Source: Candidatus Zixiibacteriota bacterium
GTDB lineage: Bacteria; Zixibacteria; MSB-5A5; GN15; FEB-12
DNA length: 57,108 nucleotides
Direction: 5' to 3'
Assembly (NCBI GenBank): GCA_020351995.1
Contig: CP070674.1
Location: 3,455,091 to 3,512,198, forward strand
Shown: piece by piece, positions 10,665-49,013 of the stretch
How the letters are laid out: the number at the start of each line of letters is the position of its first letter
Position numbering within the stretch: the stretch's first letter is position 1
Translations under genes and position numbers: made by a program
Notes under the pieces: model-generated
Told to the model about the DNA's origin: nothing
The model's database searches: none
What the model saw: the letters and a program-made list of their open reading frames with translations, nothing else

Positions 10665-11273
10665 TTACTTCCTTCGACCGGGAAGCCGCCTTTGACCGGA
10701 TTGACGTCTCCGATAAGCCCGGGCCTTATCCCGACTTCCACAGACCGCCATCGAGCACCAGCGGCCTGACTGGTTTTTTGAGTTATCGTAAAAGGCCCAC
10801 TGGCAAACGGGATCATCGCAAGCTTTAAGACGAAACCAGGTTCCCTTATTAACAGCCTTAACGACCCGTGAGACTATCTGACCAAGAGCACCAGCCATTC
10901 CTTGAGCAGCCGGGACCAGCGACAGATCACCGTCGCGAGCGAAGGAAACTGCCAGAGGATACTGACACAGCAGGCTGTTGATGTGGCTGAGGGAAGCAGG
11001 CGACATCATTCCACCGTTATTAGCAAGAAGAAGTGAGCGCAGTGATTCCCGCAACGCGAGGGCGGCCTTAAGATCGGCCGACGATACCGTAGCGGTTGCC
11101 GACAGCAGGCCGTGGCGAACCAGCCAGGATTTGAGGGTCTGTCTGGTGCCGATGTCATCGGTATTTCCCTCGACATCAAGAGTATTGATAAACCCCTGTA
11201 CCATAATGAGTTCACCCGGCGCAGGCTTGCTTCCAGTTTTGAATAGCTCGCGGTTCTTCATAGCTGAGTCCAT
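10665..11273 (-). CDS. CGNR zinc-finger (ABATE) domain protein
   Basis: About 202 residues. The N-terminal half (MVQGFINTLDVEGNTDDI, TRQTLKSWLVRHGLL, LRESLRSLLLANNGG) fits the ABATE stress-related domain, and the C-terminal half carries the CGNR-type zinc-finger pattern CDDPVCQWAFYD...RWCSMAVCGSR, so all four Cys ligands are present. The final signature reads CGSR instead of CGNR. Proteins of this family are thought to be transcription regulators. ATG at 11273 (MDSAMKN) is preferred over an upstream TTG at 11282; a third candidate is ATG at 11261. No clear ribosome-binding site decides between them. Confidence 0.82.
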   Translation of the reverse strand: MDSAMKNRELFKTGSKPAPGELIMVQGFINTLDVEGNTDDIGTRQTLKSWLVRHGLLSATATVSSADLKAALALRESLRSLLLANNGGMMSPASLSHINSLLCQYPLAVSFARDGDLSLVPAAQGMAGALGQIVSRVVKAVNKGTWFRLKACDDPVCQWAFYDNSKNQSGRWCSMAVCGSRDKARAYRRRQSGQRRLPGRRK

Positions 11274-38749: not shown

Positions 38750-40507
38750 ATGGAAACCGGAAACAGACAGAACGAGTCGCCTCGGAGCCCTCTAACCCAA
38801 CCGTCAAACGTGCGGATGCTGACCAGCCGGATCCTGGAGTTTGCTGACAGCGGTGTTCCCCGAGCCCAGTTTCTCAAAGAGTTGTCACGGATAATGATCG
38901 AGTTCACCGGGTGTTATATATTAAGTCTGGTCATTCAATACCAGAGTCGGTGTTATCGATGTGAGTTGACGCGCGATGCCGGCAAGCCTTTTCGCTTTGA
39001 TGTAGTGCCGGGAACTCCCGATGAAAAGGCCCGGGTGACCTGGAGTCTGGGCCGAAACGACGCGCTCGAACGTCTCTGCGATGACATCATCGGCCGGAGA
39101 ACGAATGCTTCAGCACCCTGGTTTACGCGACATGGCAGCATGTGGACAGGAGACATGAGTTCTCTTCCTTTGAAGGGTCTGCAAGAGCCAGTCCGCGGCG
39201 GAGGTCTGGGGATTCGAATCGATGAGAACTGTGCCTCCTTTGCCCTGATTCCTATCGAGACGCGGCATGAGCGCATCGGTTTGTTGCAGCTGGTATCGGC
39301 CATGAAAAGCCGGTTTGGCGAGGCCGAGGTCGAGGTTTGTGAGCAACTGTCACAGACTCTCGGAGTGGCCCTGGCCCACCGGCGGCTACAACTGGCACTT
39401 CGAGAACGAGTAAAGGAACTTACCTGTCTTTACGGCATTGCACGTTTAGCAGCGCAACCGGGAATTTCGCTCGAGGATCTTTTGCGGAAAGCAGTCGGAC
39501 TTCTGCCGCCCGGATGGTTATATCCCGACTCGGCGTGTGCCCGAATCGTACTGGGCGATCGCACCTTCGCCACCAGTAACTTCCGAAAACCGGTCCAGAG
39601 TCTGAGGGCTGATCTGATCGTTGACGGAAACAAGGCCGGTTTTGTCGAAGTGGGTTATAACTGGGAAAAGCCGCCGCTCGACGAAGGCCCGTTTCTGACC
39701 GAGGAACGCAATTTGATAGATACGGTAGCCCACGAGCTGTCGATAATCGTTGAGCAGAAGCAGGCGGACGCCGAGCGTTCGGTTCTGGAAGATCAACTCT
39801 TGCATGCTGATCGCCTAGCAACAATCGGGCAACTCGGAGCAGGACTGGCTCACGAGCTTAACGAGCCACTGGCGAACGTTCTCGGATTTGCGCAGTTGGC
39901 TGCCAAGGATGCGAGCCTGACAGATCAGACGAGGTTGGATATTGAAAAGATAGTCGGTGCCGCTTTGCACGCCCGCGAGGTAATTACCAAACTTCTGGTG
40001 TTCGCCAGGCAGACGCGGCCAGAAAAAACCCAGGTGAATCTCAACAGTATTGTAGGTGATGGGTTGTATTTCCTGCAGTCGCGGTGTACCAAGGCGGGAA
40101 TAGAAATCATAAAGAAGCTCGCGGGCGACCTTCCGGAAATTGTCGCCGACCGCGCCCAGATCCTTCAGGTTCTCACCAACCTGGCCGTCAATTCCATACA
40201 AGCCATGCCCAAGGGCGGGGTGCTTACCATAAGCACGGATTTTGACCGCCGTTACGTAAAGTTGGTGGTGGAGGACACGGGTACAGGTATGAGCGATGAA
40301 ATAATGAAGAACATATTCAACCCGTTCTTTACCACCAAAGACATTGACCAGGGTACAGGATTGGGTCTTTCCGTCGTGCACGGGATCGTGACGTCGCATG
40401 GTGGAACCGTTGAGGTTGAGAGCGCAGTGGATAAAGGGGCGAAGTTCACCGTCCAGTTGCCGGTGGATACAACCGCAAATGATAAGCGAGGTAACAGCCA
40501 TGGCTGA
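38750..40507 (+). CDS. Cytosolic GAF-domain sensor histidine kinase
   Basis: 585 residues with no membrane helix. Residues about 20-200 form a GAF-like sensor (ISLVIQYQ-like strand, CASFALIPIETRHERIGLLQL), and about 215-335 a second GAF-like domain (ELTCLYGIARLAAQPG, ADLIVDGNKAGFVEVGY). The kinase core has the H-box IGQLGAGLAHELNEPLANVLG near residue 360, N-box LTNLAVNSIQAMPKGG, and G boxes VEDTGTGMS and GTGLGLSVVHGI. Its stop overlaps the start of the sigma-54 regulator, so the two proteins are a cognate pair. The cytosolic sensor suggests an internal metabolic or redox cue. Three cysteines in the first sensor domain (CYxCE region) might matter for this. Confidence 0.92.
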   Translation: METGNRQNESPRSPLTQPSNVRMLTSRILEFADSGVPRAQFLKELSRIMIEFTGCYILSLVIQYQSRCYRCELTRDAGKPFRFDVVPGTPDEKARVTWSLGRNDALERLCDDIIGRRTNASAPWFTRHGSMWTGDMSSLPLKGLQEPVRGGGLGIRIDENCASFALIPIETRHERIGLLQLVSAMKSRFGEAEVEVCEQLSQTLGVALAHRRLQLALRERVKELTCLYGIARLAAQPGISLEDLLRKAVGLLPPGWLYPDSACARIVLGDRTFATSNFRKPVQSLRADLIVDGNKAGFVEVGYNWEKPPLDEGPFLTEERNLIDTVAHELSIIVEQKQADAERSVLEDQLLHADRLATIGQLGAGLAHELNEPLANVLGFAQLAAKDASLTDQTRLDIEKIVGAALHAREVITKLLVFARQTRPEKTQVNLNSIVGDGLYFLQSRCTKAGIEIIKKLAGDLPEIVADRAQILQVLTNLAVNSIQAMPKGGVLTISTDFDRRYVKLVVEDTGTGMSDEIMKNIFNPFFTTKDIDQGTGLGLSVVHGIVTSHGGTVEVESAVDKGAKFTVQLPVDTTANDKRGNSHG

Positions 40508-41831
40508 TAAGCAGGAGAAAATACTGGTGGTCGATGACGCTCCGGAAACGCTGGAGGTACTCAGGCGCAACCTGACCTCGCGCGGCTACCAGGTGTTAAC
40601 GGCGCCAGGCGTTGACGATGCCCTTCGCGTACTGGATTCGGAGACGGTCGACCTGGTTATCACGGACTACAAGATGCCCCGGGTGAGCGGTCTGGATCTG
40701 GTTCGTCACGTCCGTGAGAATTACCAGGACACGGAAGTGATGATGATCACCGGGTATGCCTCGATCGGCGGCGCGGTAGAAGCGGTTAAATACGGGGCTG
40801 AAGATTATTTGGCCAAGCCGTTCACCGATGAAGAACTCTTCAGCGCTGTGGAGCATGCTCTCGACAAACTTCACACCCGTCGCGCCTCACGCCTCGGGGC
40901 ACAAGAGCCGATCGATGAGACCTATGGTATCCTGGGCAAGTCGAAAGCGATCAAGAAAGTATTCGGTTTTGTTGACAAGGCAGCCGGAACACCGGCCACA
41001 GTTCTGATCACCGGCGAAAGCGGAACCGGCAAGGAACTGGTGGCCAGAGCGATTCACTATCGCAGCCCGAGGGCCTCGGCACCATTCGTACCAGTCAACT
41101 GCGGAAGTATCCCGGAAGGTCTGCTGGAAAGTGAGCTGTTTGGCCATGTCAAGGGGGCCTTTACGGGCGCCATTGAAACCCGGGCAGGGTTTTTCCAGAC
41201 AGCCGACGGCGGGACGATTTTCCTCGATGAAATCAGTGAGACCAGCCTGGCCATGCAGGTCAAGCTTCTTCGTGTCCTGCAGGACAAAGAGGTGTGCATG
41301 GTAGGTGATACCCGAACACGAAAGGTTGATGTGCGGATTGTGGCGGCGACCAATAAGGACCTGCTCAACCATGTAAAGAAGGGGCTGTTCCGCGATGATC
41401 TGTTCTTCCGGCTGAGTGTAATAACGATTGCCGTGCCCCGTTTGGCCGAGAGGGGCGACGATGTATTGATTCTGGCCCAGCATTTCGCGGATAAGTTCGC
41501 AAGGGAAATGGACAAGAAGCCCCTGCGGTTTTCCGACGGAGCCCTGAAGGCCCTGAGGAATTATGACTGGCCTGGTAATGTTCGGGAACTGGAGAACGCC
41601 ATACAGCGCCTGGTGGTCATGACCGATGGTGATGTTGTCAGCGCTACGGACTTGCCCTCACTGATGAGATTCTCGGCTCCGCGGCAGCGCGGACTCAAGC
41701 GGAGTCTTGCCGAGGTTGAGAAAACGCACATAAAAGCTGTACTCGAAAGTGTGAGCGGCAACAAAACGCGAGCGGCCGAGATTCTGGGTATTGATCGCAA
41801 GACTCTTCGAGAGAAACTCAAAGAAGACTGA
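40500..41831 (+). CDS. NtrC-family sigma-54-dependent response regulator
   Basis: 443 residues from ATG 40500 (MADKQEKILVVDDAPE), which overlaps the kinase stop by eight bases. The receiver domain has acidic Asp pair VVDDA, phospho-acceptor in VITDYKMP and Lys in LAKPFTD. The AAA+ domain has Walker A GESGTGKELVARAIH, the sigma-54 contact motif GAFTGAIETRAGFF, and Walker B GGTIFLDEIS. A Fis-type helix-turn-helix is at the C-terminus (NKTRAAEILGIDRKTLREKL). It should activate a -24/-12 promoter. The nearest such sequence is at 42058-42074, in front of the redox operon. Confidence 0.95.
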   Translation: MADKQEKILVVDDAPETLEVLRRNLTSRGYQVLTAPGVDDALRVLDSETVDLVITDYKMPRVSGLDLVRHVRENYQDTEVMMITGYASIGGAVEAVKYGAEDYLAKPFTDEELFSAVEHALDKLHTRRASRLGAQEPIDETYGILGKSKAIKKVFGFVDKAAGTPATVLITGESGTGKELVARAIHYRSPRASAPFVPVNCGSIPEGLLESELFGHVKGAFTGAIETRAGFFQTADGGTIFLDEISETSLAMQVKLLRVLQDKEVCMVGDTRTRKVDVRIVAATNKDLLNHVKKGLFRDDLFFRLSVITIAVPRLAERGDDVLILAQHFADKFAREMDKKPLRFSDGALKALRNYDWPGNVRELENAIQRLVVMTDGDVVSATDLPSLMRFSAPRQRGLKRSLAEVEKTHIKAVLESVSGNKTRAAEILGIDRKTLREKLKED

Positions 41832-42141
41832 GCCATTATCGACCGGCAAGTTTCGGCGGGGACTTTCTCCCCGGCGGTACAAAATTCCCCACTTTTCGAA
41901 TCCTAAATGTTGAGTTCTCAGGGCTTTTTGTTGGCCTTTCCGGTGATCCATGCGATAGCAGCCGCTGCTCCTAAGTCTATATAAACATATATCTTAGCGT
42001 GCGGTGGCAGTACTGGCCGGCCAACTGCACAACACTCCAAAATCTGACTTTATTGCGCGGCATACGCCTTGCTTAGGCACCGGCTTGTGGGTGTGGATAG
42101 GCCGGAGCACTCGCACAAAACGAATTAGAAGGAAGGTCTAT
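41832..42141. promoter_or_regulatory. Control region of the redox operon
   Basis: 310 bases without a gene. Three dyad-symmetric sequences lie upstream of a sigma-54-like promoter: AGCAG-CCG-CTGCT (41957-41969), an imperfect dyad CTAAG...CTTAG (41971-41997) and GCAGT-AC-TGGCCGGCCA-ACTGC (42007-42028). Relative to a start near 42085 they centre near -120, -100 and -67, the usual zone for enhancer sites of NtrC-type activators. A weaker hairpin CGGGGA/TCCCCG near 41854-41870 after the regulator stop has no T-tract. Confidence 0.5.
42058..42074 (+). promoter_or_regulatory. Candidate sigma-54 (-24/-12) promoter
   Basis: CGGCAT (42058-42063), five bases, then TTGCTT (42069-42074). The invariant GG and GC dinucleotides are present with the required ten-base separation. 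It lies 67 bases before the ATG of the first redox-operon gene and directly downstream of an NtrC-type activator gene, so position supports the call. Confidence 0.58.
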
Positions 42142-42477
42142 ATGATGCGAATGGGCGCAACAGAACGGAACACCGTAGGAGGCCTCGTCATGAGTATGAA
42201 GGATTCTGGTGTGGGGCTGTGTCTGACCTGCAATAACGCGGCTGACTGTGTATACCGAAAGCGCCGCGGGGCTGACGCCACATACTGCGAGACGTTTGAC
42301 GACTATGTGCCACATAATGGCAACGGCCGTAAGAAGGCCTCTTCGTTGGTTATGGTTACTGAAACAGCGGCGAAGCCAACGGAGGTCAATGGGCTTTGTC
42401 TGAACTGTGTACATCGCGATGGCTGCAAACTCTCCAAGCCTGAGACGGGAGTGTGGCACTGCGAAGAATATGAATAG
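42142..42477 (+). CDS. Small double-C4 cysteine protein, first gene of redox operon
   Basis: 111 residues from ATG 42142, with AGAAGGAAGG (42127-42136) as ribosome-binding site. The protein consists of two copies of one motif: GLCLTCNNAADCVYRKRRG...YCETFDDY and GLCLNCVHRDGCKLSKPETG...HCEEYE, i.e. G-L-C-x2-C-x5-C-x13-C-E-x-(F/Y) twice, joined by a KK-rich linker. The four Cys per copy could bind zinc or a small Fe-S cluster. I have a memory of similar small proteins near NuoE/NuoF-type genes in anaerobes but cannot name a family. It is probably an electron-transfer or assembly partner of the complex encoded downstream. Confidence 0.75.
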   Translation: MMRMGATERNTVGGLVMSMKDSGVGLCLTCNNAADCVYRKRRGADATYCETFDDYVPHNGNGRKKASSLVMVTETAAKPTEVNGLCLNCVHRDGCKLSKPETGVWHCEEYE

Positions 42478-42499: not shown

Positions 42500-43351
42500 A
42501 TGCCTGCTGACAAAGTTCCGGCATCGGTGAACAAGGGCAAAACCGGGATGGGCGAATTGATCTCCATTCTGGAGGAGATACAGGCCAAATACAGTTATCT
42601 CCCGGAGGATGTCCTTCGCCAAGTCGCTGAGGAAACCGGTCGCTCGCTGGTTGACATTTACGGCGTAGCGACATTTTACAGGGCTTTCAGCCTTGTACCA
42701 CGGGGCAAGCATCTGATTTCGGTCTGTCTGGGAACCGCCTGTCATGTTCGAGGCGGCCCCGCTGTTGCCCGGGAAATTCAAAGTCAGTTAGGAATCAAAC
42801 CCGGTCAGACGACGCCGGACCGGGAATTCACTCTTGAGACGGTGAACTGCCTGGGGGCTTGCGCTCTTGGTCCGGTGATTGTAGTTGATGGGCACTATTT
42901 CCCGGGGGTGAAGACCTCGATGGTCAAAGGGATATTGCAGCAAGCCCGGACCGGTCTGGATCGAGTCGAGGTCGAGACGGATCAGCGGATTTTTCCTCTG
43001 GAGGTAAGCTGCGCCCGCTGTAATCACAGCTTGATGGATGCCAGACATGTTATCGACGGTTATCCTCCGGTGCGAGTAACGGTTTCGTTCGGCAACAAGC
43101 ACGGGTGGATGCTGCTGTCGAGTCTTTACGGTAGTCACGAGGTATCGATGGAGTATGAAATTCCGCCCGATACCATCGTTCACATGTTCTGTCCTCACTG
43201 CCACGCCGAGCTGATCGGCGGAGCGAAATGCGGTGAGTGCAGTGCGCCTATGGTACCGATGATTGTCCGTGGCGGCGGTGTGGTTCAGATTTGCTCGAGG
43301 CGGGGTTGTAAGGGTCATATGCTTGACCTGGGCGGCGTCACACTGGATTGA
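42500..43351 (+). CDS. NuoE-like 2Fe-2S subunit with C-terminal zinc-ribbon-like extension
   Basis: 283 residues. Residues about 15-150 match the 24-kDa NADH dehydrogenase/HydC/HndA family: helical start (ISILEEIQAKYSYLPEDVLR), IYGVATFYRAFSL, then the thioredoxin-like 2Fe-2S ligands CLGTACHVRGG (C-x4-C) and NCLGACALGPV (C-x3-C), all four present. The remaining 125 residues are not part of standard NuoE: SCARCNHS, FCPHCHAELIGGAKCGECSAP and ICSRRGCKGH provide four Cys pairs resembling zinc ribbons around a beta region. It begins 22 bases after the double-C4 gene. In the complex it would carry electrons between the NuoF-like flavin and another carrier. Confidence 0.88.
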   Translation: MPADKVPASVNKGKTGMGELISILEEIQAKYSYLPEDVLRQVAEETGRSLVDIYGVATFYRAFSLVPRGKHLISVCLGTACHVRGGPAVAREIQSQLGIKPGQTTPDREFTLETVNCLGACALGPVIVVDGHYFPGVKTSMVKGILQQARTGLDRVEVETDQRIFPLEVSCARCNHSLMDARHVIDGYPPVRVTVSFGNKHGWMLLSSLYGSHEVSMEYEIPPDTIVHMFCPHCHAELIGGAKCGECSAPMVPMIVRGGGVVQICSRRGCKGHMLDLGGVTLD

Positions 43352-43390: not shown

Positions 43391-46300
43391 ATGAGAAAGC
43401 TCTCAACGGTTGAAGAATTGCACGGTTTTCGCCTGCGAATCATGGGCGAAGGAAAAGCCCGACAGGACAAGCCGACACTGGTTATCAGCGCTGACACTGG
43501 GGCGCAAGCCAGCGGTGTCAACGATATCATAAGAGTAGCAAAGCGGTACATTCTGGAGAGAAGTCTTCAGGAAAGGGTTACGTTGAGGATTACCGGTTGT
43601 CACGGGTTCTGCGAGATGAACCCGTACATTCTAGTTGAACCGGGCGGTCATTTTTATCCCAAGCTTGAGATGGGGGATATTCCAAGAGTCGTCGAAGCCG
43701 CGGTGGGGGATTTCGTTGATGAAGGACTGATTTACAAGGACTCACGCGAACTAAAGAGTTATCACTACCGAGACGACATCCCGTTTTTCAAAAAGCAGAT
43801 GCGCACCATACTGGGAATTAACCAGAAACTGGACCCCATAAGAATCCTCAACTATTTTGAGCAGGGCGGGTACGCAGCTACGGAGAAAGTGTTATCCGAT
43901 CCGGACCCCGAGTGGATAATCAGCGAGATTTCCAAATCCGGTCTCAGAGGACGAGGCGGGGCGGGTTTTCCCACGGGCAAGAAGTGGGGTCTGGCCCGGG
44001 CCTCCGGAAATGACTGCGGGCAAAAGTATATCATCTGCAATGCAGACGAAGGCGATCCCGGGGCTTACATGGATCGCGGCGTTCTGGAGGGCAACCCCCA
44101 TGCAATTATCGAGGGAATGATTATAGGCGGAATCGCTATCGGCGCGACCCAGGGTATAGTATACGTTCGAGGTGAGTATCCCCTTGCCATCAAGCACACC
44201 CTTATCGCTATTCGCCAAGCACGAGATCTCGGTCTCTTGGGAAAGAACATAATTAACACCGGTATCGATTTTGACATCTCGATCGTCCGCGGCGCGGGCG
44301 CATTTGTCTGCGGCGAAGAAACCGCGCTGATCAAATCCATCGAGGGCACCATGGGCGAACCACGTCAGCGGCCGCCGTATCCGATAGCAAAGGGCCTGTA
44401 TGGTTGCCCGACCTGTATCAACAACGTGGAGTCCCTGGCCAATATACCGGTGATCATCGAGAAGGGCGCCGACGAATACGCCAAGGTGGGTGTTCCGGGC
44501 AACACGGGCACAAAGATCTTTTCTCTGGTGGGAAAGATCCGAAACACGGGTCTGGTCGAAGTGCCGCTGGGCATGAAGATGAGCGAGGTGGTGTACGATA
44601 TCGGCGGGGGACCGGTTGGCGAAGCCAAGATCAAGGCCGTACAGACCGGAGGACCTTCGGGCGGATGCATCCCGGCCAGACTATTCGACATTCCGATAGA
44701 TTATGACAGCCTTGCAAAGGCAGGATCCATTATGGGGTCGGGCGGCATGATCGTCATGGACGAAGACACCTGTATGGTTGATGTGGCCAAGTACTTCATG
44801 GGCTTTTTGAAAGACGAGTCCTGCGGCAAGTGTTTTACGTGCCGTAAGGGTACACAGCGAATGTATGAGATCCTTGATGACGTGACGAAGGGTACGGCTA
44901 TGATGGAGCATCTCGATGTGCTGGAGGAACTGGCGCTGACGGTGAAAGACACGACCATGTGCGGACTGGGACAGTCGGCGCCGAACCCGGTCTTAAGCAC
45001 CCTGCGTTATTTCCGTGAGGAATACGAGCGTCATATCATAGATAAGCGGTGTGATGCCTTTGTATGCAAGGACCTAGTGGGGGCTCCCTGTCAATCGGCC
45101 TGCCCGTTGGGGACGGAAGCCTGGCGCTACGCGGCTCATATCGCTCGCGGTGAGTACGAGGAGGCTTACCGGGTAATCAGGCAAGTTAATCCATTCCCAT
45201 CGGTTTGCGGCCGGGTCTGTCATCATCCCTGTGAGAAACGTTGCCGGGCGGGAACCAGCGGCGGTGACCCGGTTGCCATTCGGGCTCTCAAGAGGTTCAT
45301 CACCGACCGTATCGATCCGTCGGTGTACAAGGCCGAAAGGGTGGCCTGGTCCGACGGGGATGCACCGCGGGTAGCCATTGTGGGGGCCGGTCCCGCAGGC
45401 CTTACAGCCGCGCATTACCTTTCACTGCAAGGTTTCAAGGTTACGGTATATGAGGCGGAGTCCGAGCCCGGAGGCATGCTGTACTGCGCCATTCCATCCT
45501 ATCGTCTACCCCGGGAAGTTATCAAGAGAGAGATCAAATCTCTGCTCGATGAAAATATAACTCTTAAGTGTGACACCATTCTGGGCCGGGACATAACCGT
45601 GGACAAGCTGTTTAAGGAGGGTCATAAAGCGGTGCTCCTGGCGATGGGAGCGCACAAGAGCAAGCCCCTTAAACTGGAAAACGAGGATATGAAAGGGGTA
45701 TATCCTTCGATCGAGTTTTTGAAGGCATTCAACACGAAGAATCAGCAACTCGCCAGAGGGCGAGTTGGCGTGATCGGCGGGGGTAACTCCGCCATAGATG
45801 CCGCCCGGATGGCGCTTCGACAGAAGGATGTCGAAAGTGTAACAATCCTCTACCGTCGCACACGGGACGAGATGCCTGCCTTTACCGAGGAAATCAAGGC
45901 GGCCGACCAGGAAGGTATCGAGATCAAGACGCTGGTGTCACCCACGCGGGTGCTGGGCAGTAACGGTATTCTTTCCGGGCTGGAGTGCATCAACAACAAG
46001 CTTGGTGATACCGATTCCAGCGGCCGGCGCACACCTGTTCCCATTGAGGGTACAGAGCATATTATCGGGCTTGACACTCTGATTGTGGCCATAGGAGAAG
46101 ATTCCGGTGTGGATGCTATTGAGCCTGCCCAGATGAAAGGCATTGAGACGACGCGTTCCAACACGGTGAAGGTCGATAGCTCGACACTTCTGACCAATCG
46201 GCCCGGTGTATTCGCCGCTGGTGACGTAGTCACGGGGCCAAACACGGTTGTCGATTCAATCGCGACCGGTAAGAGGGCAGCCATGATGATAGAACGGTAC

Positions 46301-46594
46301 GTGCGCAATGAAACGCTGGAATGTCCCGAGGAGCCGAGGATACCGCGGGTTTACATCGAACCGCGGACATCGGAGGTGGATGGCGCGGAGACGCCCGGCC
46401 GGGTAGAAACGCCATGGGCGCCGGCGGCCTGGCGGGCGCGGAACTTCTCCGAGGTGGAGGTATCGCTTTCAGCCGATGAGGCAATTTGCGAAGCCGGTCG
46501 CTGTCTGCGCTGCGACTTAGAATTCACGCAGCCGAAAGAAGCGGAACAGGAAACCGAGCCGGAAACCGAGAAAATCACAACTGTAGGGAAATAG
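43391..46594 (+). CDS. NuoF-GltD fusion: flavoprotein oxidoreductase
   Basis: 1067 residues joining two enzymes. Residues about 25-115 are a thioredoxin-like domain that keeps GCHGFCE but has SADTGAQASG where CxxTxCxAxG is expected. Residues about 150-555 are NuoF/HydB-like: GLRGRGGAGFPTGKKW (FMN/NAD site), ICNADEGDPGAYMDR, and a 4Fe-4S ligand set SCGKCFTCRKG plus TTMCGLGQSAPNP. Residues about 555-1045 are GltD/NfnB-like: two 4Fe-4S sites (CQSACPLG, CGRVCHHPCEKRC), FAD motif VAIVGAGPAGLTAAHYLS, NADP-type motif VGVIGGGNSAIDAARMA followed by YRRTRDEMPA, and GVFAAGDVVTGP. The fusion resembles joined Stn/Nfn-type transhydrogenase subunits and could bifurcate electrons. A soluble cytoplasmic location is likely. 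Confidence 0.92.
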   Translation: MRKLSTVEELHGFRLRIMGEGKARQDKPTLVISADTGAQASGVNDIIRVAKRYILERSLQERVTLRITGCHGFCEMNPYILVEPGGHFYPKLEMGDIPRVVEAAVGDFVDEGLIYKDSRELKSYHYRDDIPFFKKQMRTILGINQKLDPIRILNYFEQGGYAATEKVLSDPDPEWIISEISKSGLRGRGGAGFPTGKKWGLARASGNDCGQKYIICNADEGDPGAYMDRGVLEGNPHAIIEGMIIGGIAIGATQGIVYVRGEYPLAIKHTLIAIRQARDLGLLGKNIINTGIDFDISIVRGAGAFVCGEETALIKSIEGTMGEPRQRPPYPIAKGLYGCPTCINNVESLANIPVIIEKGADEYAKVGVPGNTGTKIFSLVGKIRNTGLVEVPLGMKMSEVVYDIGGGPVGEAKIKAVQTGGPSGGCIPARLFDIPIDYDSLAKAGSIMGSGGMIVMDEDTCMVDVAKYFMGFLKDESCGKCFTCRKGTQRMYEILDDVTKGTAMMEHLDVLEELALTVKDTTMCGLGQSAPNPVLSTLRYFREEYERHIIDKRCDAFVCKDLVGAPCQSACPLGTEAWRYAAHIARGEYEEAYRVIRQVNPFPSVCGRVCHHPCEKRCRAGTSGGDPVAIRALKRFITDRIDPSVYKAERVAWSDGDAPRVAIVGAGPAGLTAAHYLSLQGFKVTVYEAESEPGGMLYCAIPSYRLPREVIKREIKSLLDENITLKCDTILGRDITVDKLFKEGHKAVLLAMGAHKSKPLKLENEDMKGVYPSIEFLKAFNTKNQQLARGRVGVIGGGNSAIDAARMALRQKDVESVTILYRRTRDEMPAFTEEIKAADQEGIEIKTLVSPTRVLGSNGILSGLECINNKLGDTDSSGRRTPVPIEGTEHIIGLDTLIVAIGEDSGVDAIEPAQMKGIETTRSNTVKVDSSTLLTNRPGVFAAGDVVTGPNTVVDSIATGKRAAMMIERYVRNETLECPEEPRIPRVYIEPRTSEVDGAETPGRVETPWAPAAWRARNFSEVEVSLSADEAICEAGRCLRCDLEFTQPKEAEQETEPETEKITTVGK

Positions 46595-47298: not shown

Positions 47299-48888
47299 AT
47301 GTCCATAACCCTATCAAGAATAAACTCGTCGGCCGCTACCTTGACGAAAAATCGCACGGAAGGTTCGGTTTCTCCAAACTCCGGAATGTGCGTAACCTGC
47401 GTGGACGGCTGCATCGGCATGTGCGAAATCGGAAAGTCCGCTTTCCGGGGCCATGAGGTCATCTATCCCCAGCCTTTCGGCGTTATCACGACCGCCGCAG
47501 AAAAGACTTACCCCGTGGATTATTCGCACTTCAACATCATGGGAACCGCTGTCGGCGCTCACGGTATGGAGGCGGACAGCGATAAGGCGATATTCCCGGC
47601 GGTCGATCTTGAGGTGAAATTCGGGCACGACAAGGGATTGAAGTTTCGGTACCCGTGGGTAATTCCCGGCATTGGTTCGACCGATATCGCGAAGAACAAC
47701 TGGGAAGGGTTGGCGATCGGTTCCGCCCTGGCCGGTACAGGACTGACCATCGGGGAAAACGTTGTCGGCATGGACACGGAGTCGGTTATCAAGAAAGGTA
47801 AGGTAGTCGATACCGCGGATTTGAAGCGACGGGTAAAGCTGTTCATGGATAATCAGCGTGACGGCTACGGGGCGATAATTGTACAGGCAAACGTAGAGGA
47901 TACCCGCCTGGGGACCCAGGAGTATGCCATCGAGAAACTGGGCGTGCAGGTGGTAGAGCTAAAGTGGGGCCAGGGAGCCAAGAATATCGGTGGCGAGGTA
48001 AAGATCAAGAACCTCGAGAAAGCCCAGATGCTTTTTGAGCGGGGTTATGTGGTTCTCCCGGATCCAACCGATCCCAACGTGATCAAGGCATTCGAGAACG
48101 GCGCCTTTAAGGAATTCGAGAGGCACTCCAGGCTTGGCATGGTTTCCGAGGATTCGTTCGCGCAGCGCGTTGAAGAACTTCGCAAAGCCGGCGCGAAATA
48201 CGTCTTTCTCAAAACCGGGGCCTACACCCCGGCTGACCTGGCCAGAGCCGTCAAGTACGCCTCAAAATACAAGATTGATTTGCTGACGGTGGATGGTGCC
48301 GGCGGCGGCACGGGCATGAGCCCCTGGCGAATGATGAACGAATGGGGCGTGCCCCCGGTGGAGCTTCATTCGCTGCTTTATCGGTACGCCAAACAGCTTG
48401 CCGACAAGGGTGAGCATGTTCCAGCTCTTGCCGTTGCGGGCGGATTTACATTCGAGGATCAGATTTTCAAAGGTCTGGCTATGGGGGCTCCGTTCGTGAA
48501 GCTGGTTGGAATGGCTCGCAGCCCGATCGCGGCCGCCATGGTAGGAAAGACAATCGGTCTTACCATCGACGCCCACCAGGTACCGGTATACGTGGAGAGA
48601 TTCGGGCAAACCCGTGATGAGATTTTTGTCACCTCCGGTGAATTACGCAAAGAACTCGGTGACCGCGAGTTCGAGGCTCTGCCTACGGGAGCTATTGGGC
48701 TTTACACCTACTATGAGCGTTTGGCCCAGGGGCTCCGCCAGTTGATGTGCGGCAGCCGTAAATTTGCGCTGGAGCATATCTCCCGCAATGATATCGCCGC
48801 TCTCACACATCAGGCTGCCGAGGTCAGCGGTATTGAATACATTATGGACTACGGCAAAGCGGAGGTTGAGCAAATACTCAATAGTTGA
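47299..48888 (+). CDS. Glutamate-synthase-like FMN domain protein lacking the 3Fe-4S motif
   Basis: 529 residues. ATG 47299 has ACGGAGGTA at 47286-47292; the open frame extends back into the preceding gene but without a start of merit. The core resembles the FMN (synthase) domain of glutamate synthase: LTVDGAGGGTGMSPWRMM, LAVAGGFTFEDQIFKGLAMGA and GAPFVKLVGMARSP are the characteristic phosphate-binding and barrel blocks. The N-terminus carries a Cys cluster Cys31-x2-Cys34-x3-Cys38-x3-Cys42 (CVTCVDGCIGMC). The CHxNxCPVG 3Fe-4S motif of true glutamate synthases is missing, and no amidotransferase domain is encoded nearby, so glutamate formation from glutamine is unlikely. It is the last gene of the operon. 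Confidence 0.88.
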   Translation: MSITLSRINSSAATLTKNRTEGSVSPNSGMCVTCVDGCIGMCEIGKSAFRGHEVIYPQPFGVITTAAEKTYPVDYSHFNIMGTAVGAHGMEADSDKAIFPAVDLEVKFGHDKGLKFRYPWVIPGIGSTDIAKNNWEGLAIGSALAGTGLTIGENVVGMDTESVIKKGKVVDTADLKRRVKLFMDNQRDGYGAIIVQANVEDTRLGTQEYAIEKLGVQVVELKWGQGAKNIGGEVKIKNLEKAQMLFERGYVVLPDPTDPNVIKAFENGAFKEFERHSRLGMVSEDSFAQRVEELRKAGAKYVFLKTGAYTPADLARAVKYASKYKIDLLTVDGAGGGTGMSPWRMMNEWGVPPVELHSLLYRYAKQLADKGEHVPALAVAGGFTFEDQIFKGLAMGAPFVKLVGMARSPIAAAMVGKTIGLTIDAHQVPVYVERFGQTRDEIFVTSGELRKELGDREFEALPTGAIGLYTYYERLAQGLRQLMCGSRKFALEHISRNDIAALTHQAAEVSGIEYIMDYGKAEVEQILNS

Positions 48889-48983: not shown

Positions 48984-49013
48984 AAGGGCCTCTTATGAGG
49001 CCCTTGCTATTTT
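48984..49013 (+). terminator. Terminator of the redox operon
   Basis: AAGGGCCTC (48984-48992), loop TTAT, GAGGCCCTT (48997-49005), then GCTATTTT. A perfect nine-base GC-rich stem with a short T-rich tail, about 95 bases after the last stop, marks the end of the transcription unit. Confidence 0.85.

Follow-up and report, generated by a model that had tools for sequence, protein, structure and literature searches.

A glutamate-synthase-like flavoprotein encoded with NuoE-, NuoF-, and NuoG-like subunits: a candidate substrate-handling component of a Bfu-type complex

The Bfu family is defined by a BfuBC core (Schut et al., PMC9304861). In NiFe-Bfu, according to the available text of that survey, the [2Fe-2S] cluster B2 has five ligands: C438, C476 (often Thr), H525, C531, and C536; the histidine is absent from non-bifurcating homologues. 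The same text describes 17 BfuB clades without obvious function and a survey filter that requires the ferredoxin domain IPR017896. This filter would leave out any form in which a GltD-type module takes the place of that domain. Here, such an operon is described from a 57,108-nucleotide stretch of a Candidatus Zixiibacteriota bacterium (GCA_020351995.1, contig CP070674.1, positions 3,455,091 to 3,512,198 of the forward strand), referred to as the window. The last gene of the operon encodes a glutamate-synthase-like protein of the flavin mononucleotide (FMN) type, termed GLS, and follows conserved NuoE-, NuoF-, and short NuoG-like genes, a context that the first-pass annotation of this DNA had missed. 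Taken together, the data make it probable that GLS belongs to a complex with these NuoE/F/G-like subunits. A fuller proposal, held tentatively and at a little less than even confidence, is that GLS handles the substrate in a Bfu-type (HydABC-like) flavin/iron-sulfur complex of four subunits and reduces 2-iminoglutarate with electron bifurcation.

The case for a shared complex begins with gene order. A scan of genome contigs placed GLS relatives at at least 585 loci, and locus counts out of 80 refer to the best 80 of these, taken with their flanks. GLS identity across the 80 is 79-93%, and their records come from Zixiibacteriota, Planctomycetota, Calditrichota, KSB1, Latescibacterota, Acidobacteriota, Bacteroidota, and other phyla. 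The order NuoE-NuoF-NuoG'-GLS (NuoG' being the short NuoG-like gene) is kept in these loci wherever the contig extends far enough. In a FastTree phylogeny of 24 GLS proteins, the Nuo-associated members form one clade. No GLS relative was found in phage records at E 0.01. The nearest relative (L003, 93% identical, on a metagenome-assembled chromosome) has one in-frame stop in its GLS gene at about position 11249, which may be a sequencing error or the mark of a pseudogene.

The bifurcation-linked feature of the operon is the ligand pattern of its NuoF-like subunit. This protein is a fusion of 1067 residues: the NuoF part extends to about residue 560, and a GltD module occupies about 553-1067. 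The NuoF part matches PF01512 and PF10589 over cut-off, and its SLBB match (PF10531) reaches 22.5 bits, below the cut-off of 27. The B2-type ligands are C461, T499, H548, C554, and C559, with spacing identical to that given for NiFe-Bfu in the available text of PMC9304861. Where the B subunit could be read (71 loci), H-x5-C-x4-C is present in every case, a cysteine stands at -87 in 70, and position -49 is Ser, Thr, or Cys in 69 (40 Ser, 25 Thr, 4 Cys, with Ala in the other two).

The tail of this subunit takes one of two forms: a two-[4Fe-4S] ferredoxin in 21 of the 71, or a GltD module in 50 (49 by pattern, L068 by eye). None carries both. In a FastTree phylogeny of NuoF domains from 69 loci, tail type changes at least 10 times, as compared to a mean of 18 and a lowest value of 12 in 200 label shuffles. 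The ferredoxin and GltD tails look interchangeable and have apparently been swapped many times. This exchange suggests that the low-potential branch ends at ferredoxin in one form and at nicotinamide adenine dinucleotide phosphate (NADP+) in the other.

The remaining Nuo-like subunits are conserved in their cluster motifs. The [2Fe-2S] motif of the NuoE-like subunit is present in 58/60 relatives; paired CxxC motifs in its C-terminal extension, which appear zinc-ribbon- or rubredoxin-like, recur in 57/60 by pattern. The NuoG-like subunit carries one [2Fe-2S] and two [4Fe-4S] motifs in 76/77 relatives. Its C-terminus is also cysteine-rich, with at least six cysteines in the last 60 residues in 76/77, and could possibly form a further cluster or a docking site for GLS.

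The relationship of GLS to glutamate synthase is most evident in profile comparison. The sole Pfam match, Glu_synthase (PF01645; 56.1 bits, cut-off 20.4), covers just 122 residues (281-402). No NCBIfam model matches, and a sequence search of the PDB returned a single doubtful match (E 0.067). Profile-profile alignment (hhalign) against six glutamate synthase FMN domains, one from E. coli GltB and five from single-domain relatives, extends over residues ~49-522 (probability 97.9, E 4.6e-13); a more diverse GLS set gives a probability of 98.1 and E 7.4e-14. This six-domain reference set omits L088, which holds CX5CX4C, and the 178-residue fragment L092. An AlphaFold2 model of GLS contains a mostly confident barrel, with a mean predicted local distance difference test (pLDDT) score of 78.3 and a predicted template-modeling score of 0.81. 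Its best solved-structure matches are FMN 2-hydroxyacid oxidases, such as flavocytochrome b2 (1qcw_A; Z 26.2, root-mean-square deviation 3.3, 304 residues aligned). Glutamate synthase chains are absent among the fold matches listed, which is uninformative given that these chains are ~1,500 residues long. A second PF01645 match of the genome (L002) was rejected as a GLS relative; its sequence is one that we take to be IMP dehydrogenase.

The first-pass annotation had claimed that GLS lacks the 3Fe-4S motif of glutamate synthase and bears a new N-terminal C-x2-C-x3-C-x3-C cluster, and both points hold. The cysteines C1102, C1108, and C1113 of E. coli GltB align with K417, I423, and V428 of GLS, and C-x5-C-x4-C was found after residue 380 in none of 24 family members. 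Of 79 close relatives free of in-frame stops, 78 carry the N-terminal motif CX2CX3CX3CE, L049 being the exception and L003, with its in-frame stop further on, not being counted. The motif is also present in all 24 members of the wider set, at identities down to about 41%. Conservation of this extent is not due to chance. The same annotation raised the alternative that the N-terminal cysteines are a circularly displaced 3Fe-4S site. On sequence grounds, this is rejected: there are four cysteines, their spacing is different, they precede the barrel, and the old site is empty.

The description of the FMN barrel blocks as intact holds only approximately: GLS is identical at 35 of 64 columns that are invariant in the six glutamate synthase FMN domains. 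The retained positions include GltB E891 (E153 in GLS), K931/Q934/K937 (K222/Q225/K228), and K999 (K305), as well as D1019, T1022, and the GG-x-TG turn (GGGTG). E153/K222/Q225/K228/K305 are found in 27/27 aligned rows. The Synechocystis equivalent of GltB E891 is presumably E903, close to the ammonia channel, and we take the K/Q/K/R set to surround 2-oxoglutarate in glutamate synthase; a search of the open-licence PubMed Central (PMC) literature found no residue-level 2-oxoglutarate contacts for this enzyme. The GltB PG-x-GG-x-LP loop is partly lost, and S864/G866/S869 are also lost, in a region where the alignment is weak. Because some invariant positions are kept and others are lost, sequence alone does not decide whether the product of GLS is glutamate. 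The earlier claim that the product is probably not glutamate is unsupported as stated: the invariant positions are partly kept, and the gene neighbors suggest glutamate or imino-acid chemistry.

GLS has neither a GATase_2 domain nor any other GltB domain by Pfam. The earlier statement that no glutaminase domain is encoded nearby can be extended to the whole 3.6-Mb genome, as GATase_2 was absent at E 0.001 from all 21 genomes searched (this one and 20 relatives). The control search was positive in 12 of 14 known genomes, with Synechococcus and Sulfolobus negative. The electron entry route to the GLS FMN must differ from that of glutamate synthase, as had been argued, and likely runs through the products of the adjoining NuoE/NuoF/NuoG-like genes.

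From this anatomy and co-conservation, which are read directly from the sequences, we infer a scheme for cluster type, electron path, substrate, direction, and bifurcation. The four GLS cysteines would bind a [4Fe-4S] cluster through which the short NuoG-like subunit and the GLS FMN exchange electrons. Bifurcation would take place at the FMN and the His/Cys B2 cluster of the NuoF-like subunit. The high-potential branch would terminate at the GLS FMN; the low-potential branch would lead to ferredoxin in ferredoxin-tailed forms or, in GltD-tailed forms such as that of the window, to NADP+ via the flavin adenine dinucleotide (FAD) of the GltD module. GLS would most likely reduce a 2-imino acid, in particular 2-iminoglutarate formed from 2-oxoglutarate and free ammonia. 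With reduced nicotinamide adenine dinucleotide (NADH) as donor, the overall reaction would be: 2 NADH + NADP+ (or oxidized ferredoxin) + 2-oxoglutarate + NH4+ -> 2 NAD+ + NADPH (or reduced ferredoxin) + glutamate.

The potential of the glutamate/2-oxoglutarate + NH4+ couple is about -0.12 V, so NADH-driven reduction of 2-iminoglutarate would release enough energy to drive another electron pair onto ferredoxin or NADP+. The reverse, a confurcating oxidation of glutamate, would also be possible. The chances that GLS acts on a 2-imino or 2-oxo acid appear evenly balanced, and that it acts specifically on glutamate is somewhat doubtful. Rather unlikely is the full picture: a bifurcating, ammonia-dependent glutamate synthase in anaerobes of many phyla, driven by NADH, free of glutaminase, yielding NADPH or reduced ferredoxin, and repeatedly exchanging its acceptor tail.

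Evidence on the substrate comes from gene neighbors, which point towards glutamate or imino-acid chemistry. Glutamate dehydrogenase (GDH) genes lie in the flanks of 13/80 loci (16 genes), against an expectation of 0.83. This expectation derives from 45 genes in 21 genomes (about 0.89 if all 48 rows over the cut-off are used) and applies the density of the window's relatives to all phyla; some of the 13 loci are kin and so are not independent. When 14 of the 16 genes were checked with Pfam, all 14 matched ELFV_dehydrog, with at least one match in each of the 13 loci. In 7/80 loci (L008, L017, L022, L045, L048, L049, and L050), GDH lies directly beside the operon on the same strand.

A related signal comes from a single compact FastTree branch made up of three loci without Nuo-like genes (L110, L115, and L120). 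Here, GLS adjoins genes for an iron-containing redox enzyme of the PF14518 kind and a RidA-family protein (PF01042 in 3/3). RidA proteins hydrolyze reactive imino acids, and such a neighbor is consistent with a GLS flavin that acts on imino acids. In L110 and L120, the next gene is a GDH-Asp/Glu racemase-like fusion: ELFV_dehydrog matches in both, and the racemase match is over cut-off in L110 and slightly under in L120.

The wider set of solo GLS genes has other neighbors. At least one gene for a heme-oxygenase-like iron redox enzyme stands beside GLS in L110, L111, L112, L115, L117, L120, and L122, identified as PF14518 by Pfam in L110, L111, and L117 and by similarity in the other solo loci. 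Sigma-54 response regulators were confirmed near solo GLS in L111, L112, L115, and L120. MoxR-like genes adjoin GLS in L108, L109, L116, L118, and L119; in these five, and in L113 and L114, no GDH- or RidA-type substrate hint was seen by eye.

Several observations weigh against a bifurcating complex that produces glutamate. First, 14 of 15 divergent regions carry GLS without NuoE/F/G genes, so GLS does not need these genes, and most of the 14 have no GDH or RidA neighbor in the parts examined. Second, the B subunit of the window has GltD in place of the ferredoxin domain (IPR017896) that defines BfuB, and its N-terminal [2Fe-2S] site retains only two cysteines. StnB likewise lacks two of the four cysteines at this site (available text of PMC7483475). 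Third, residues 1-69 of the GLS model have pLDDT below 50, and the predicted four-cysteine site is not placed relative to the FMN. Finally, GltB R957 (M244 in GLS), P938, G939, P945, and S967 are lost, so the substrate may differ; R957 is presumably the carboxylate-binding arginine of glutamate synthase.

Nitrogen assimilation in GLS-bearing genomes adds to these reservations. Two genes for glutamine synthetase and two clear GDH genes are present in the window's genome, with no GATase_2 match. GDH is present in all 21 related genomes searched, and glutamate supply therefore need not require GLS. Of 97 genomes from the window's phylum, 45 have a strong GLS match and 96 lack GATase_2, the other giving one weak match; as GATase_2 is missing with or without GLS, GLS is not simply a GATase_2 replacement. 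In the phylum of L016 (a Phycisphaerales record), avoidance of glutamate synthase is weak: strong GATase_2 occurs in 3/24 genomes with GLS vs 62/172 without (Fisher p 0.021, kinship ignored; strong GLS is E below 1e-140, strong GATase_2 above 280 bits). Across 39 GLS-bearing genomes searched, a set that excludes the L066 genome, GATase_2 is clear in five, and one more has a weak match below cut-off.

In one alternative, the complex is as described and GLS acts on another 2-oxo, 2-imino, or 2-hydroxy acid, such as a different amino acid or 2-hydroxyglutarate. The direction might then be confurcating, for which lactate dehydrogenase-Etf provides an analogy. This alternative, unlikely in itself, survives best among the rivals: several positions invariant in glutamate synthase are changed, GLS shares its fold with FMN 2-hydroxyacid oxidases (1qcw_A), and the solo relatives beside PF14518 redox enzymes and RidA suggest more than one context. 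2-Hydroxyacid oxidases carry a catalytic His/Arg pair. The place where this motif is taken to lie instead reads D[GA]AGGG[TS]GxSP in 17/24 GLS members (the other seven differ somewhat), and D332, G335-G337, G339, S341, and P342 are kept in 24/24. Classical 2-hydroxyacid oxidase chemistry is disfavored by the GGG[TS]G at this presumed place, despite the matching fold, and the GDH neighbors favor glutamate/2-oxoglutarate.

The solo occurrence of GLS, which extends to a relative in Peptoclostridium (L083) without Nuo-like genes, would also fit a separation of functions. NuoE/F-GltD/NuoG' would then be a plain or bifurcating NADH/NADP(H) transhydrogenase of the Stn kind, and GLS a separate, ferredoxin-linked enzyme sharing the operon. 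In Stn, the NuoE, NuoF, GltD, and NuoG parts suffice for transhydrogenase activity (available text of PMC10482914 and PMC7483475). This arrangement is nonetheless improbable, as 21/71 B subunits have no GltD, and the set would have no known substrate beyond NAD(H)/ferredoxin unless via GLS. GLS is also the constant partner of the Nuo-like set in the best 80 loci, the Nuo-associated form is a single clade, and the NuoG-like partner has its extra cysteine-rich C-terminus (76/77). A glutamate synthase, ammonia- or glutamine-dependent, with linear electron supply and no bifurcation is very unlikely: it would suit the FMN-domain homology, the GDH neighbors, and the precedent of changed electron inputs in F420-linked glutamate synthases (available text of PMC9012536), but the genome has no GATase_2 match, GLS has no 3Fe-4S site, and the bifurcation-linked B2 ligand pattern is found in 71/71 B subunits.

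The features of the operon and of the regulatory region before it are collected in Table 1. The true start of the response regulator is probably at about 40500. Its homologues by clustering occur in 36/80 loci (42 open reading frames) and may include other such regulators. The small CxxC-rich protein, whose conserved gene separates those of the sigma-54 regulator and the NuoE-like subunit, probably starts at about 42142, downstream of the promoter-like site, and has no Pfam or NCBIfam match. In 33/57 sequences, the window included, the 700 bases preceding the NuoE-like gene hold a sigma-54-like site that scores at least 13.5 of 16.5, vs 36/285 controls drawn as random stretches of the same loci. 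Within the window, a strict sigma-54 pattern has no match and a relaxed pattern has no more sites than chance, so it is conservation across loci that argues for the site and for putative sigma-54 control of the operon.

Table 1. Coordinates of the GLS operon and associated features in the window
Feature	Position	Strand	Basis
Sensor histidine kinase (HisKA/HATPase; GAF match below cut-off)	38750..40507	+	Pfam; homologues in 33/80 loci (clustering)
NtrC-type sigma-54-dependent response regulator	40398..41831	+	Pfam PF00158/PF00072/HTH_8
Small CxxC-rich protein	42004..42477	+	Open reading frame; homologues in 23/80 loci (clustering)
Sigma-54 (-24/-12) promoter-like site CGGCATACGCCTTGCT	42058..42073	+	Score and conservation across loci
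NuoE/BfuC-like [2Fe-2S] thioredoxin-fold subunit with C-terminal CxxC-rich extension	42500..43351	+	Pfam PF01257, 151.7 bits
NuoF/BfuB-like FMN subunit fused to GltD-type FAD/NADP(H) module	43391..46594	+	Pfam, ligand pattern
Short NuoG/HoxU-like (BfuA-like) subunit, 225 residues	46599..47276	+	Pfam PF13510, PF12838
GLS, glutamate-synthase-like FMN protein, proposed third-substrate subunit	47299..48888	+	529 residues; ATG at 47299, 22 bases downstream of the NuoG-like stop, with GGAGGT upstream; stop ends at 48888
CX2CX3CX3CE motif of GLS (residues 31-43), presumed [4Fe-4S] site	47389..47427	+	Sequence pattern
Terminator-like hairpin after operon	48984..49005	+	Weak: 1 found vs 0.4 expected in shuffles

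Searches of the open-licence PMC literature, supplements aside, returned no account of a Bfu core accompanied by a glutamate-synthase-like protein. The operon suggests an undescribed coupling of amino-acid chemistry, probably that of glutamate, to electron carriers in anaerobic bacteria. If this is true, the list of bifurcation-coupled reactions, which already has hydrogen, formate, and NADP+ on it, would gain ammonium assimilation (or glutamate oxidation). NuoF-like subunits with swappable ferredoxin and NADP(H) tails would likewise represent a natural experiment on the low-potential exit of Bfu enzymes, and the tail swap in BfuB-like subunits merits separate study as a clue to that exit.

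Of the known systems, the GltB subunit of glutamate synthase (GOGAT) shares with GLS the FMN-type barrel (PF01645), the matching E/K/Q/K/K and GG-x-TG positions, and glutamate-related neighbors. GLS differs from GltB in three respects: it has no GATase_2, other GltB domains, or 3Fe-4S cysteines; it has gained the N-terminal four-cysteine motif; and its electrons probably come from NuoE/F/G-like subunits rather than from a separate GltD or ferredoxin. Also related are the FMN glutamate-synthase-like proteins of L086-L091 (and the fragment L092), rubredoxin-fused and membrane-type, which likewise have no amidotransferase. Unlike GLS, the L086-L091 proteins keep CX5CX4C, and L086, L088, and L089 show no N-terminal CX2CX3CX3C. 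The L086-L088 proteins, from related genomes, have an N-terminal rubredoxin-like part, and the L086 gene is preceded by a rubrerythrin-like gene; L092, also from a related genome, keeps the 3Fe-4S motif. The F420-dependent glutamate synthases (FGltS; available text of PMC9012536) are comparable, by description only, in that GLS too would have exchanged its electron-input partner; the FGltS partner is instead an FrhB-type F420 protein, in archaea.

The closest parallels to the electron-input side are the Bfu family and Stn. As with Bfu enzymes in the available text of PMC9304861, the operon encodes BfuC- and BfuB-like subunits, B2 ligands, and a BfuA-like subunit with [2Fe-2S] and two [4Fe-4S] motifs; in contrast to them, the window's B subunit carries a GltD module where the ferredoxin tail stands. 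The word glutamate is absent from the main text of PMC9304861, which names no glutamate-synthase-like third-substrate subunit, and the ferredoxin-tailed form may be among its 17 unassigned BfuB clades. Stn (Nfn-Bfu) of Sporomusa, in the available text of PMC7483475 and PMC10482914, is built of the same NuoE, NuoF, NuoG, and GltD parts and has a similarly degenerate N-terminal [2Fe-2S] site in its NuoF-like subunit. The two differ in arrangement: GltD is fused to the NuoG-like subunit in Stn and to the NuoF-like subunit here, and the two C-terminal [4Fe-4S] sites that StnB keeps are replaced here by GltD, with GLS added to the set.

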